41,557 nt of DNA from an uncultured Actinomycetes bacterium (GTDB lineage Bacteria; Actinomycetota; Actinomycetes; Nanopelagicales; Nanopelagicaceae). The DNA is taken from positions 1 through 41,557 of the forward strand of contig CAIXKQ010000054.1 of the NCBI GenBank assembly GCA_903920065.1. Reading direction: 5' to 3'. Position numbers and translations under genes: made by a program. Under the pieces are notes generated by a model. That model was not told where the DNA came from and did no database searches. It worked only from the letters and a program-made list of their open reading frames with translations. How positions within the stretch are numbered: the stretch's first letter is position 1; the number at the start of each line of letters is the position of its first letter. Below, piece by piece: positions 7,760 through 34,969 of the stretch.

Positions 7760-8590
7760 CTATACGAGCTTTGGAATTGTGGTCGCAAGGAGTGATCCCA
7801 TGCGACTGGCAGCAGCTTTACCTGCAGCGATGACTTCTTCATGGTTTAACTTCTCGCCAGTCACACCAGCTGCAGCATTTGTTACTAAGGAAATACCTAA
7901 TACTTCAGCACCGAGTGCGTGAGCTGCAATTGCTTCCGGAACGGTAGACATTCCTACTAAATCAGCGCCCATGGTGCGCATCATGAGAATTTCTGCTGGA
8001 GTTTCATAGGTTGGCCCGCGCCAGTGAACATAGACACCTTCGGCAAGAGAAGAATCTTCCTTCTTTACAATCTCACGAATTCGCTTGCTATAAAGATCTG
8101 TGAGATCAATAAATGTTGCACCTGAAAGTGGTGAGGCGGCGGTGAGTGAAATATGGTCGCGAATTATCACAGGCTGTCCCACTTTGTAGGAGGTGTTAAT
8201 TCCACCGCAGGCATTTGTCAGAATGACAACCTTGCAGCCTGCTTTCACCGCAGTGCGTACGCCGTGCACAACTGGCTCCATACCCTTGCCTTCATACAAG
8301 TGTGTGCGACCAAGAAAAACCAGCGCTCGAATCGTCTTGCCATTTTCACTGATTTCATATGAGCGAACTTTTCCGGAGTGACCTTCTACTGCTGGTGCTA
8401 AGAATCCAGTGAGTTCGTCGGCGTTACATTCAAAGGCAGGAGTGCCAAGTGCATCAGCTGCGCCCACCCAACCCGAACCCATGACCAGTGCAACATCGTG
8501 TGATGCCACACCCGTGCGCTGGGCAATTTCCTTCGCTGCCTGGGTAGCTGCAGCGAGAGGATCAGAGTAGAGAAGTTCGGTCGAGGTCAT
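7760..8590 (-). CDS. Purine nucleoside phosphorylase (trimeric type)
   Basis: This 276-residue enzyme phosphorolyses inosine and guanosine and their deoxy forms to base plus (deoxy)ribose-1-phosphate. Motifs of the trimeric PNP/MTAP family: MGSGWVG (phosphate loop), [41 protein letters not shown] and VTNAAAG (purine-binding Asn). The start overlaps the stop of the carboxylase gene upstream (ATGA, 8587-8590). Placement in a fatty-acid/propionyl carboxylase operon but beside the mutase, and back to back with the deo operon across a convergent junction, ties it to nucleoside salvage. Confidence 0.93.
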
Positions 8591-10305
8591 GCCTGAATAA
8601 TGTCACAGAGAACTGTTCCACTAGCCACAGTCTCACCTATAACAGCTTTTAAGTTCTTAATCACACCGCTGGTATGGGCATTTAATGGCTGCTCCATCTT
8701 CATGGCTTCGAGCACAATAACAAGATCACCAGCTTCAACGCTCTGTCCTTCTTCCACGGCAATCTTCACCACCGTTCCCTGCATCGGGGATGCAAGTCCG
8801 GTTCCCGCTACGCCAGTGACAGAAGATTGCTTTGCGCGGTGGCGTTTGACGACAGGTTCTGGTGCATGAACGAGAATTTCAAATCGCTTTCCATTAACTT
8901 CAGCAACTAATTTCTCAGCAGCTACCTTTGTCTGAATATCTAAAGGAACAGATTTAAATGCTGGAATCTCGTTGTTAAACTCATTTTCAATGTAACTGGT
9001 ATAGACCTTGAAATTTTTTGTGTATGCAGGGTCTTCAAGAATTGCGCGGTGAAATGGTAGCGCCGTTGCCAGTCCACCGACTTCAAACTCTGCAAGAGCG
9101 CGACGAGCACGTTCAATGGCCTGTTCGCGAGTTGCACCAGTAACAATGAGTTTGGCAAGAAGTGAATCAAAGTTTCCACCAATAACATCACCGTTACGAA
9201 AACCTGCATCAACGCGAACTCCAGGACCAGTCGGGATATTCCACGCAGTGATGCGACCAGGGGCTGGCAAGAACGAACGTCCCGGATCTTCACCATTAAT
9301 ACGGAATTCAATTGAGTGTCCACGCACAACAGGATCATCAAAACCTAAACTTTCACCCATTGCGATTCGGAACTGTTCGCGCACTAAGTCAATACCGGTG
9401 ACTTCTTCAGAGACTGGATGTTCCACCTGCAACCGAGTATTTACCTCTAAGAATGAAATTGTTCCATCTTGCCCAACAAGGAATTCGCAGGTGCCGGCGC
9501 CGATATAGCCTGCCTCTTTCATAATTGCCTTACTTGAGCGGTAGAGCTCTTCATTCTGAGCTTTCGTCAGAAATGGTGCAGGCGCTTCTTCCACAAGTTT
9601 TTGATGTCGGCGTTGTAATGAACAGTCTCGCGTTGAAACAACAACTGCGTGGCCATGCTTATCAACTAGTACTTGAGTCTCAACGTGGCGCGGCTTATCA
9701 AGGTAGCGCTCAACAAAGCATTCACCGCGCCCAAAACCTGCAATCGCTTCCCGCACTGCAGAGTCATAGAGCTCTGGGATTTCCTCCATTGTGCGAGCAA
9801 CTTTGAGACCACGACCGCCTCCACCAAATGCCGCCTTGATGGCAACAGGAAGCCCGTGTTCTTTGGCAAATGCCAATACTTGCTCATGACCAGTAACTGG
9901 ATCTTTTGTACCGGCAACAAGAGGAGCCCCAGCAGCAGCTGCAATGCGACGAGCAGAGACTTTATCGCCGAGCGCACTGATTGCCGCTGGGGGAGGTCCA
10001 ATCCAGATAAGACCTGCATCGAGGACTGCTTGTGCGAAGTCGGCATTTTCAGAAAGGAATCCATAGCCAGGATGTACTGCATCAGCCTTTGCTTCTTTGG
10101 CAAGTGCGATGATCTTCGGAATATTGAGGTAAGTATCTTTGGCAAGTGTTCCATTGAGTGAGTAAGCAAAGTCGGCGCTCTGGGCGTGCAGCGCATCACG
10201 ATCTTCTTCTGAGTACATGGCCACACTTTCAAGGCCGTGGTCTTTGCATGCACGAATAACGCGTAGGGCGATTTCGCCTCGGTTAGCAATCAGAACGCGC
10301 TTCAT
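8587..10305 (-). CDS. Acetyl/propionyl-CoA carboxylase alpha subunit (biotin carboxylase + BCCP)
   Basis: A 572-residue fusion: the biotin carboxylase ATP-grasp domain takes about residues 1-445, and a biotin carboxyl carrier domain the last 75. The N-terminus [13 protein letters not shown], the glycine-rich loop [11 protein letters not shown] and [14 protein letters not shown] are diagnostic. The biotinylated lysine is in EAMKMEQ (Lys536). It works with the beta and epsilon subunits encoded upstream and is biotinylated by BirA. I chose the ATG at 10305: it overlaps the maf stop as ATGA and is preceded by AAAGGAG; the ATG eight codons upstream lacks these. AccA3-like architecture. Confidence 0.95.
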
Positions 10306-10904
10306 GACATCTCCTTTACCTGTGGCCAAGAATATCCAAGTTGCTTCATTGCGCCACGAAGAAAGGGCATCGATATACCGACAACATTAGTGTAATCGCC
10401 TTCAATTACCGGAATAAATGGAGAACCGAAGCCATCGAGAGTAAAACCACCGGCAACGTGCAGAGGTTCACCGGATGCAACATAGTCGGTGATTTCTTCT
10501 TCAGTCATCTCGGTAAATGTCACCTTCGTGGTGACGCGGTCTGCAATTTCAATACCTTTCTCAGTATCAATAATGCAGTGACCTGTATGAAGTAGTCCGG
10601 TGCGCCCACTAATTTTCTTTGCTCGTTCAATGGCAATATCTGTGGTTCCAGGTTTTCCAAATGAAACTCCATCAACATCAAAAGTTGAATCACAACCAAT
10701 GATGATGGCTGGATAATCAATCATCTCGCGAACCGTATGAGCCTTTGAAACTGCTAGCGCAATAACCATATCCGTTGGGCTCATGGCATTGAAAAAATCA
10801 GTCTCTTCATCAACATTACTTACAATGATTGTTGGCTTGAGACCCGCATCTTCTAAAAGTCTGCGGCGGGAAGTTGATTGGGAAGCAAGAACAATGCGTG
10901 GCAT
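10302..10904 (-). CDS. maf: Maf-family nucleotide pyrophosphatase
   Basis: This 200-residue cytosolic protein of the Maf/HAM1-like fold hydrolyses non-canonical or modified nucleoside triphosphates. The N-terminal motif [13 protein letters not shown] and the substrate/metal region [12 protein letters not shown] followed by FGKPGT are visible. It sits between accE and the biotin carboxylase gene, an arrangement I recall in mycobacteria too. Start: ATG at 10904 overlaps the accE stop as TGATG; a TTG one codon upstream (10907) is possible. The stop overlaps the next ATG. Confidence 0.9.
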
Positions 10905-11086
10905 CAATTAATCTTTCTTGGGCCAAAAGCAATGTGATGAGGTAAAGGTTGTCGTAGTTGAGGCCGTCCAAAAACGCTTCGCTTGATAACCGGCGTGAGA
11001 TCAACAGATTTATGGTTGACCAAAACTGCTTGCAGCGCGAGGAGTTCCTCTGGAGTGGGGTTTCCAGATACGACGGTGAATTTCAT
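10904..11086 (-). CDS. accE: Acyl-CoA carboxylase epsilon subunit
   Basis: A 60-residue protein with the actinobacteria-specific AccE pattern: VVSGNPTPEELLALQAVL at residues 4-21, then a basic proline-containing tail. AccE bridges or stabilises the alpha and beta subunits in actinobacterial acyl-CoA carboxylases. It begins two bases after the accD stop and ends overlapping maf, so it is translated from the accD transcript. The small size and the position directly after accD make this call firm despite the low information content. Confidence 0.88.
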   Translation of the reverse strand: MKFTVVSGNPTPEELLALQAVLVNHKSVDLTPVIKRSVFGRPQLRQPLPHHIAFGPRKIN

Positions 11087-11088
11087 TG

Positions 11089-12660
11089 CTAGAGCGGAAT
11101 GTTTCCGTGCTTACGTGCCGGCAAGGTATCGCGCTTTGTTTTTAAGGTGCGGAAAGCCTTCGTGATGTACTGACGGGAATCTTCAGGCTCAATCACGCTA
11201 TCGATAGTTCCGCGTTCTGCCGCCAAGTAGGGGTTTGAAAACTTCTCGGTGTACTCAGTAATGAGTTCGGCTCGCTTAGCGTTCTGGTCCTTAGATTCAG
11301 ATAACTCTTTGCGATACAAGATATTAACCGCACCTTGTGCGCCCATCACTGCAATTTCAGCAGATGGCCATGCGAAGTTGATATCACTGCCAAGGTATTT
11401 GGAACCCATCACAATAAATGCCCCGCCGTATGCCTTACGGGTAATGAGTGTGACTAGTGGAACTGATGCTTCAGCGTATGCATAGAGCAGTTTTGCACCG
11501 CGGCGAATGATTCCGTCCCACTCTTGTTCGGTGCCAGGCATAAATCCTGGGACATCCACGAGGGTGAGAATTGGAATATTAAAAGCATCGCAGAAACGCA
11601 AGAATCGTGCTGCTTTTTCAGAAGAATTGATATCAAGAGTTCCCGCTAGCTGTGAAGGTTGGTTGGCAATAACTCCGATTGATTGGCCTTCAATACGCGC
11701 AAAACCCACGACGATATTTGGCGCATAGAGAGCGTGGACTTCAAGGAATTCACCTTCATCGACAAGAGCGGAAATCAGTGACTTCATGTCATAAGGTTGA
11801 TTAGGACTATCAGGGATTAATGTATTGAGTGCAACATCAGATGAATTCTTATCAAGGTTCTGTGTTGGGGGCAAAACAGGTGAACCATCCATATTATTTG
11901 ATGGAAGATAAGAGAGAAGTGCTTTCACATAATCAATCGCATCAGCTTCAGAATCTGCCATGTAGTGAGCATTTCCTGACTTTGTGCTGTGAGTAAATGC
12001 TCCACCAAGTTCTTCCATTCCAACATCTTCACCAGTGACAGTCTTGATGACATCGGGTCCGGTGATGAACATGTGTGAAGTTTCCTTAACCATCACGGTG
12101 AAATCTGTGAGCGCAGGTGAATAGGCAGAGCCGCCAGCGCAAGGTCCGAGAATGAGGGATATTTGTGGAATCACTCCTGATGAGCGAGTGTTGAGGCGAA
12201 AGATTTTCCCGTAACCATTAAGTGATGCAACACCTTCTTGAATTCGCGCGCCACCGGAATCATTAATACCAATCAGAGGAATGCCTGCTTTGAGTGCAAA
12301 CTCTGCAATCTTCACAATCTTTTCAGAGTGAACCTCACCGAGTGATCCGCCGAAGACAGTGAAATCTTGCGAGTACAGAGCGATCGGGCGACCATCGACA
12401 GTTGCTGTTCCAATAATGACACCATCGCCGTATGGACGGTTCTTATCCATCCCAAAATTCTGAGCACGATGACGTGCGAACTCATCTATCTCGGTAAAGG
12501 AATCGGCATCGACAAGCATCTCGATTCGCTCGCGAGCTGTTCCTTTGCCCTTGGCATGCTGTTTCTTTCGGGCTCTTGTCGAACCAGCATCAACGGCTTC
12601 ATCAATTCGCTCACGGAGGTCTTCAATTTTCCCCGCGGTAGTGTGCAGATCTGGGCTCAT
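11089..12660 (-). CDS. accD: Acyl-CoA (propionyl-CoA) carboxylase beta subunit
   Basis: A 523-residue carboxyltransferase with the two crotonase-like halves typical of AccD5/Pcc[14 protein letters not shown] in the N-terminal half and [14 protein letters not shown] in the C-terminal half, the two acyl-CoA and biotin oxyanion regions. It transfers CO2 from carboxybiotin to acyl-CoA, giving malonyl- or methylmalonyl-CoA. An ATG also exists at 12666, but a -10 box (TACCTT on the minus strand) lies exactly six bases before the 12660 ATG, so I prefer the shorter form. It heads the six-gene minus operon running to 6121. Confidence 0.94.
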
Positions 12661-12665
12661 GAACA

Positions 12666-12671
12666 TAAGGT
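12666..12671 (+). promoter_or_regulatory. -10 box TAAGGT of the birA promoter
   Basis: TAAGGT is followed by seven bases and then the GTG of birA, so the transcript probably starts at the start codon (leaderless). The box overlaps the accD -10 box by five bases on the opposite strand. Confidence 0.55.
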
Positions 12672-12672
12672 A
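12667..12672 (-). promoter_or_regulatory. -10 box TACCTT of the accD operon promoter
   Basis: Read on the minus strand, TACCTT is followed by six bases and the ATG at 12660. The only space between the two divergent genes is this region, so the accD operon is probably transcribed without a leader from here. Confidence 0.55.
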
Positions 12673-12678
12673 CTAGTC

Positions 12679-13446
12679 GTGAGTACAGATACGCCAAGAC
12701 CACCGCTGGATACGGTGCAGATCTCTGAAAAAATCTCGCGGTACTGGCGAGTAAGCGTGGTCGAAGTCACGGGTTCCACGCAAGAAGATTTACTCAATCT
12801 TGTTCAGCGAGCAGAGGCACGTAGTGGCGATGTTCTTGTTACTAATTATCAAAGTGCTGGACGCGGACGACTTGATAGAAAATTTGAGGCACCGCAAGCA
12901 TCAGCACTTCTATTCTCTTTTTACATTCAACCAAAGCGAGATCAGAGCGAGTGGTCACTCCTACCTCTCATTGTTGGGCTCAGCGCGAGTTTCGCACTCT
13001 CGAAACTTGACCCTCAAGTCACCTCATCACTGAAATGGCCTAATGATCTTTTCATCAGTGGTTTGAAAACTGGCGGAATGATTGCTCAGACAGCCGGCAA
13101 CGGAATCATTGTCGGAGTTGGAATTAATGTTGCGATGGAAGAATCTGAACTTCCTGTTGCCCACGCAACTTCACTGCTGCTGCAAAATTTTGGCGAGCTC
13201 AATCGAAATGTCATTTTGGCAGCATTCCTTAACGAGTTCGCTAATCTTTTAGAACGCTGGGAAGCCGGTGAGGATCTCCGTCATCTCTATCTCGAACGCT
13301 GTAGCAGTATCGGCGCGAAGATCCAGGCAGAACTTCCAGGCGGAGTTATCAAGAGCGGAGTCGCTGTTGGTATCAGCCCAAATGGGGAGTTGATTCTGGA
13401 AGATGGCTCACGAATTACTGTTGGAGACATCGTTCATCTACGATAA
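12679..13446 (+). CDS. birA: Biotin--[acetyl-CoA-carboxylase] ligase, no HTH domain
   Basis: A 255-residue enzyme that forms biotinyl-AMP and biotinylates the carrier lysine of the carboxylase encoded across the divergent promoter. Motifs: GRGRLDRKFEAP (biotinyl-5-AMP loop) and LKWPNDLFI (catalytic Lys region), then a small C-terminal SH3-like domain ending around ITVGDIVHLR. It lacks the N-terminal winged helix of repressor-type BirA. The frame is open upstream to 12367, but that stretch lies antisense to accD; the GTG at 12679 follows a well-spaced -10 box and starts immediately before the conserved region. Confidence 0.93.
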   Translation: MSTDTPRPPLDTVQISEKISRYWRVSVVEVTGSTQEDLLNLVQRAEARSGDVLVTNYQSAGRGRLDRKFEAPQASALLFSFYIQPKRDQSEWSLLPLIVGLSASFALSKLDPQVTSSLKWPNDLFISGLKTGGMIAQTAGNGIIVGVGINVAMEESELPVAHATSLLLQNFGELNRNVILAAFLNEFANLLERWEAGEDLRHLYLERCSSIGAKIQAELPGGVIKSGVAVGISPNGELILEDGSRITVGDIVHLR

Positions 13447-34333: not shown

Positions 34334-34969
34334 TCAGAGTTCAGTACGGGGAAATCCAGAAATTCCCCGCCACATGAGGTTCTCAACGAGTTCAATCGCT
34401 TGTTGGCGAGTGAGTTTTCCATCTCTTTCTAGCCAATGACGAGCTGTGACTTGAACATAGCCAATTAATCCAACGCCGAGCATCATCGCTTCCTCCCGAG
34501 GAAGTCCGGTGTCATTGGAGATCACACCACTGACGGCGGCAGCGCAGTCGTAGGTCATGCGATTAAGTCGTTCGCGTACTTGAGGTTCAACGTTCATATC
34601 ACTTTCAAATAGGAGGCGAAATGCCTCTCCTTCATTTTCAATAAAATTAAAGTAAGCATCAATAGTCACATGCACGCGTTGCTTATTATCCGGGGTCGAA
34701 GAGATAGCTTTCTGAAGTTCATAGACCAAGGAATCAATGTGAAGGTCAAGAACGGCGAGATAGAGATCTAACTTTGAGGGAAAGTGCTGATACAGAACTG
34801 GCTTACTGACATTGGCTCGGTCTGCAATCTCATCCATCGCAGCTGAGTGATATCCAGCGGCAGTAAAGACTTCAAGAGCTGCTGAGAGCAAAATCGCTCG
34901 TCGCTCGTCGCGCGGCAGGCGTGATTTATCTGAACGCGAATTATGTGCAGATGCAGTTTCGGTAGTCAT
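34334..34969 (-). CDS. TetR-family transcriptional regulator
   Basis: A 211-residue one-component regulator. The N-terminal HTH is clear: RRAILLSAALEVFTAAGYHS then MDEIADRANVSKPVLYQHF, followed by an all-helical ligand-binding domain ending with WRGISGFPR. I chose ATG 34969, which has a -10 box TACGAT seven bases upstream; the frame runs on to 35026 but that segment would overlap the divergent moeZ start. The ligand and targets are unknown; the 55-base gap to moeZ is a natural place for an operator, though no clear palindrome was found there. Confidence 0.9.
   Translation of the reverse strand: MTTETASAHNSRSDKSRLPRDERRAILLSAALEVFTAAGYHSAAMDEIADRANVSKPVLYQHFPSKLDLYLAVLDLHIDSLVYELQKAISSTPDNKQRVHVTIDAYFNFIENEGEAFRLLFESDMNVEPQVRERLNRMTYDCAAAVSGVISNDTGLPREEAMMLGVGLIGYVQVTARHWLERDGKLTRQQAIELVENLMWRGISGFPRTEL

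Follow-up and report, generated by a model that had tools for sequence, protein, structure and literature searches.

In the commonest class of mapped bacterial bidirectional promoters, the transcription start sites (TSSs) lie 18 bp apart and the -7 and -11 bases coincide between the two strands (PMC10268837, PMC12825309). Two polymerases facing opposite ways cannot occupy such a promoter at once, but in the five E. coli examples studied the basal rate of firing was too low for them to compete, and one direction was repressed only when the other was strongly activated (PMC12825309). Leaderless promoters are a second point of reference. In M. tuberculosis, their TANNNT geometry has been established by mapped TSSs, and they serve about one-fifth of genes (PMC3898074). 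A third is FasR, a TetR-family regulator that activates fas-acpS in M. tuberculosis, where it was crystallized on the oligonucleotide RvPfas25nt, TACTGGCGAGTTCTACGTACGGGTA (PMC7382501). In C. glutamicum, FasR is an acyl-CoA-dependent repressor of accD1 (PMC7851686).

The locus described here appears to combine features of the three systems. As in the promoters of Warman and Grainger (PMC12825309, PMC10268837), a symmetric predicted -10 element can be read on both strands between divergent protein genes, with a reciprocal -7/-11 arrangement and predicted TSSs 18-19 bp apart. Unlike in those promoters, the start codons coincide with the predicted TSSs on both sides, and the whole intergenic region would be promoter core. 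Further differences are conservation across genera and an actinobacterial TANNNT instead of TATAAT; here the TSSs are predictions only. We consider it quite probable, on sequence grounds, that the 18-bp gap is one bidirectional promoter that makes two leaderless mRNAs, alternates between directions and is tuned by FasR bound within birA.

The junction between accD and birA

The window analyzed, a stretch of 41,557 nucleotides, comes from a genome of 1.19 Mb. In it, accD heads the accD-accE-maf-accA block and birA is the first gene of birA-purK-purE (Table 1). The accA-type alpha subunit is the expected substrate of BirA. The BirA protein is made of catalytic and C-terminal ligase domains only, and the N-terminal HTH of BirA-type biotin repressors is absent from it. 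The initial annotation was thus right that this BirA has no DNA-binding domain, as the catalytic match begins at residue 28 and no HTH precedes it.

Read on the plus strand, the junction is made of CAT (12658-12660, the accD ATG), GAACA, TAAGGTA (12666-12672), CTAGTC and GTG (12679-12681, birA), with 18 bp between the accD ATG at 12660 and the birA GTG at 12679. TAAGGT on the plus strand and TACCTT on the minus strand overlap by 5 bp, and A12667 and T12671 serve both strands, in the reciprocal -7/-11 fashion of shared -10 promoters. The same layout had been proposed in the initial annotation: 18 bases between starts, TAAGGT seven bases before the GTG and TACCTT six bases before the ATG. The coordinates agree with it, and the idea of two opposite -10 boxes overlapping by five bases is borne out by sequence, offset enrichment and conservation. 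What had been overlooked is that this spacing probably implies that both transcripts are leaderless.

An accD start at the in-frame ATG 12666 was considered and rejected. This codon is seen only in the closest clade and lacks conservation beyond it; hence, 12660 was retained as the start.

Table 1. Coordinates of features in the window (strand "." = not assigned)
Feature	Position	Strand	Observations
accA-type alpha subunit (biotin carboxylase + biotin-carrier domain)	8587..10305	-	PF00289, PF02786, PF02785, PF00364
accE-like epsilon subunit	10904..11086	-	PF13822, E=1.3e-5, just over cut-off; direction of accD transcript
accD, acyl-CoA carboxylase carboxyltransferase (beta) subunit	11089..12660	-	PF01039, E=7e-197; ATG 12660 conserved in relatives
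Shared box TAAGGTA (TANNNTA)	12666..12672	.	two overlapping predicted -10 elements, from sequence and conservation
Predicted birA -10, TAAGGT	12666..12671	+	7 nt before GTG, leaderless geometry; offset -13, second TANNNT peak; T12666 kept in 81/86
Predicted accD -10, TACCTT	12667..12672	-	6 nt before ATG, leaderless geometry; offset -12, main TANNNT peak; specific bases in 86/86
CTAG adjoining the box	12673..12676	.	C invariant, TAG 84-91%; kept beyond -10 consensus
birA, biotin protein ligase without HTH	12679..13446	+	TIGR00121 above cut-off; PF03099 from residue 28
Candidate FasR operator, GTACTGGCGAGTAA	12741..12754	.	birA codons 22-25; centre 87.5 bp upstream of accD start, +69 in birA
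fasR orthologue (TetR family), start codon approximate	34334..34969	-	best PDB matches (phmmer): M. tuberculosis FasR 6o6p, E=1e-58; 6o6n, E=3e-57

Neither a sigma-70 scan nor the leaderless profile yielded a convincing -35 element in either direction. None was found for birA, and TTGGCG (12697-12692, minus strand), a candidate -35 for accD, lies 19 bp from the accD box and is not conserved. Signals at -35 are weak throughout the lineage, and the leaderless profile contains only a weak T..G. The junction has no Rfam match to an RNA element. No Shine-Dalgarno sequence was seen for accD. A possible one for birA, AAGG, occurs in the clade of the window but is gone in most relatives that keep the box. 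The CTAG at 12673-12676 is more conserved than a leaderless -10 needs.

A predicted shared -10 box and two probable leaderless starts

To place these boxes in context, genes were called in two genomes of the same genus, G040 (1.34 Mb) and G014 (1.24 of 1.33 Mb), with no upstream motif as a guide. TANNNT was found at start-12 in 188/1259 genes of G040 and 147/1201 of G014, and at start-13 in 76 and 72 genes, respectively, compared with around 11 genes per other offset. These two peaks are precisely the positions of the accD box (-12) and of the birA box (-13); therefore, both are read as leaderless -10 boxes of the lineage. When the leaderless genes of the two genomes are aligned, they show C at -1, a weak -35 signal and cores resembling TAGRCT. 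TAAGGT is one of the most frequent boxes in this set, which contains TACCTT as well. Shine-Dalgarno sequences peak at -10 to -12 in the lineage. Since both TANNNT boxes end 6-7 nt before the start, the position enriched in leaderless genes, the accD and birA transcripts are probably both leaderless. The resemblance to leaderless promoters of M. tuberculosis (TANNNT about 7 nt before the start, no Shine-Dalgarno, no clear -35, C at -1; PMC3898074) is close, with the difference that TSSs were mapped there, while leaderless status is deduced here from positional enrichment.

The window contains one instance of CAT-N5-TANNNTA-N6-RTG, versus 0.07 occurrences expected from shuffles, which taken alone is modest support for non-randomness. 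Among divergent gene pairs, a shared TANNNTA at these spacings was detected in 2/161 and 2/147 pairs of two related genomes, and all 15 other palindromic 2+2 frames gave 0. Together, the enrichment of TANNNT at these offsets, the divergent-pair control and the invariant conservation described below indicate that the shared box is not random.

In pairs with two leaderless starts, overlapping -10 boxes are found at gaps of 17-18 bp (5 bp overlap) or 22-24 bp (2 bp overlap), similar to the classes of 18 and 23 bp among mapped bidirectional promoters. The 22-24 bp pairs of G040 and G014 are predicted to form another class of bidirectional promoter in which both transcripts are leaderless. From its sequence, the accD-birA gap is probably a bacterial bidirectional promoter of the 18-bp class, with predicted TSSs at 12660 and 12678/12679.

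Whether sharing a box has functional consequences is a separate matter. Genome compaction may have brought two independent promoters into overlap without coupling them, the shared bases being kept because each direction needs them. We give this explanation slightly less than an even chance. The genomes are very compact, other divergent pairs also have overlapping -10 boxes at gaps of 17-18 and 22-24 bp, and the E. coli examples lack basal competition. However, the conservation of the geometry across genera and a candidate FasR site that might bias direction leave room for coupling, neither of them being proof. The initial annotation had gone further in the opposite sense, making transcription of the two genes mutually exclusive at any moment. 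That opposed polymerases cannot bind together agrees with the claim; as a statement about expression, it is too strong in view of basal firing without competition in E. coli.

Examination of relatives, a check that the initial annotation had suggested, revealed TANNNTA in all same-genus loci and in most of the family. In the genus, the box and the 18-bp gap are found in 46/46 loci (17 TAAGGTA, 29 TACGGTA). In 86 loci of the family, A2, T6 and A7 show no change at all, so that none of the accD-specific bases varies, T1, specific for birA, is kept in 81, and NNN varies; because the loci compared are phylogenetically related, these counts are not independent. Variants that keep the consensus bases are TAAGGTA, TACGGTA, TACCGTA, TACGCTA, TAGGTTA, TAGATTA and TAGGGTA.

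Variation at NNN bears on an alternative view, namely that TAAGGT is merely the Shine-Dalgarno sequence of birA (AAGG, 8 nt before the GTG), that only the accD box is a promoter and that birA is transcribed from inside accD. AAGG does fall within the usual Shine-Dalgarno window (peak at -10 to -12), and its GG is invariant in the genus. In 29 of the 46 same-genus loci, however, the sequence is TACGGT, and TACCGT, TAGATT and TACGCT are found in other genera: the AAGG core is lost while T, A and T are kept. The change from AAGG to ACGG thus removes the Shine-Dalgarno alternative and retains the promoter bases, and many NNN variants are unable to serve as Shine-Dalgarno sequences. In addition, T12666 lies outside the Shine-Dalgarno sequence, yet is kept in 81/86 loci. 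We therefore find this view improbable, and two overlapping -10 boxes the better reading.

Departures from the arrangement were also seen. The gap is 17 in some sister loci, and the birA start codon is shifted downstream in some sister-genus loci (g175, parts of g173 and g180). Five g173 loci carry CACTTTA, in which the accD box is intact and the birA box has lost its T. In at least one of these (G366), the old birA position is no longer a start codon and is followed by an in-frame stop, which puts the birA start further downstream. Hence, the symmetric box is not essential everywhere. In two loci of genus g177 (L223 and L224), the same TACGGTA box is found around 50 bp upstream of accD; a 14-codon open reading frame begins beside it and overlaps the accD start through an ATGA at its end, and accD has a Shine-Dalgarno sequence there.

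An exact-pattern scan of public genomes found the same junction in 108 stretches, including one in the complete genome of P. versatilis MMS-IA-79. Most come from Ca. Planktophila and other Nanopelagicaceae; some records titled Bifidobacterium breve or Streptomyces griseus appear to be metagenome bins with wrong labels. The shared box was not found in relatives of the Mycobacterium and Streptomyces classes, where birA has its own TANNNT-N6/7-ATG, separate from accD.

A candidate FasR operator inside birA

Synonymous sites are unusually conserved in the first accD codons and in birA codons 3-15 and 21-30. The peak of synonymous conservation in birA is a core, TACTGGCGAGTA (that is, TACTGGCGRGTA), at 12742-12753. 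When compared with TACTGGCGAGTT in RvPfas25nt (PMC7382501), the birA element matches in 11/12 bases, and therefore resembles a FasR operator. The operator half TACTGGCGAGT of M. tuberculosis FasR (Rv3208; PMC7382501) is identical to the birA element, and the TetR protein encoded in the window is orthologous. The fadA-fadB genes of G040 are preceded by the same element, and an acyl-CoA dehydrogenase gene by a close variant of it.

In a separate genome collection, the element lies 60 or 63 nt inside birA in 78 of 80 junction matches; the two exceptions are one truncated stretch and one probable chance match. The distance from the edge of the site to accD ranges from 66 to 126 nt and varies between genera; strict helical phasing of the operator is not supported, as the spacing varies. 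TACT-N7-AGTA, which spans the start codons, was weighed as a further FasR site and set aside, since its AGTA half lacks conservation.

A constraint on protein or codons (the element encodes a conserved peptide, Tyr-Trp-Arg/Ser-Val, near the start of the catalytic domain) is a very unlikely substitute for a regulator site, given that synonymous positions are frozen (the TAC and GTA bases are fixed in 68 distinct family sequences, and CGG is often used although it accounts for 1-3% of Arg codons), that the same sequence is found upstream of fadA and that the element matches the FasR crystal operator.

Several genomes of other Actinomycetes, in which the gap is wider, have comparable sites 60-120 bp upstream of accD (in three, with a shuffle p of 0.01 or less). 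This distribution suggests that the operator belongs to accD and became enclosed by birA as the gap shrank. A terminator-like stem followed by a T-run (CTCGCCAGTACCGCGAG ATTTTTT; 12728-12751, minus strand) overlaps the candidate site and faces accD; this is a pattern match only.

The candidate FasR regulon and a proposed mechanism

The FasR orthologue is encoded in the window itself, around 22 kb from the junction. In the initial annotation, a BirA devoid of a DNA-binding domain meant that regulation had to come from another source; from the sequence evidence, that source is probably FasR. A loose half-site scan of a single genome gave a total count not above shuffle, and we relied instead on an ortholog footprint: a symmetrised matrix was derived from the birA sites and applied to 986 ortholog pairs. 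The top ten pairs, whose protein families were checked, include accD (the training site), fadA, etfB and its divergent neighbour, acp, a fabG-like reductase, an acyl-ACP desaturase and fabD. The candidate regulon in the two genomes (L061-L190) comprises acp, fabD, fabG-like, acyl-ACP desaturase, fadA-fadB, etfB, fadD, fadE and accD-birA.

As in C. glutamicum (PMC7851686), an acetyl-CoA carboxylase accD gene is found under FasR, here as a candidate target. Where the M. tuberculosis work describes fas-acpS (PMC7382501), FasR would here act on accD-birA and on genes of type II fatty-acid synthesis and of beta-oxidation, with one of its candidate sites inside a gene. At etfB the site overlaps the predicted -10, while at accD and acp it lies far upstream; hence, FasR may exert dual control. 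Site positions fit neither a strictly activating nor a strictly repressing role decisively.

The mechanism that we propose builds on sequence, geometry, conservation and the regulon pattern, from which we infer the transcription starts and the binding of FasR; its effect may be of either sign:

(i). The gap would be a single sigma-A-type promoter, with TANNNTA bound by RNA polymerase in either orientation. Leftward polymerase would start at or next to the accD ATG and rightward polymerase at or next to the birA GTG, making both mRNAs leaderless. The start-codon gap would be set by promoter geometry, with -7 and -11 bases common to both strands.

(ii). The two directions would alternate and not fire simultaneously, both genes being expressed.

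(iii). FasR, an acyl-CoA-sensing TetR protein, would tune direction and strength from its site in birA, at around -88 from accD and +69 in birA. If it activates as in M. tuberculosis, the carboxylase operon would go up at low acyl-CoA and birA would go down through polymerase competition or a roadblock. If it represses as in Corynebacterium, the effect on accD would be reversed.

A more ambitious version, in which the 7-bp symmetric box is a complete divergent promoter, FasR in the ligase gene flips the balance by polymerase competition and the regulon of synthesis and beta-oxidation is lineage-wide, so that one switch sets both carboxylase supply and its biotinylation, strikes us as possible but rather unlikely.

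At the sequence level, the locus is a case where selection on a predicted bidirectional promoter can be followed from genus to genus, as the spacing of leaderless start codons is tied to promoter geometry. The FasR regulon proposed for these bacteria, which are among the most abundant in fresh water, would include a carboxylase and its biotin ligase and have an operator maintained within a gene. Both the bidirectional promoter and the FasR regulon give simple, separable single-base predictions.

Some genomes lack BirA, any carboxyltransferase and biotin carboxylase: G310, G313, G320 (g172), G331, G335, G338 (g176), G377 (g181) and, in the same genus, G050, G380, G395 and G400. No ketoacyl synthase above cut-off was detected in these genomes, closed 99-100% genomes included, whereas positive controls were detected. 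De novo fatty-acid synthesis and the biotin ligase appear to have disappeared jointly from these lineages, which retain FasR.
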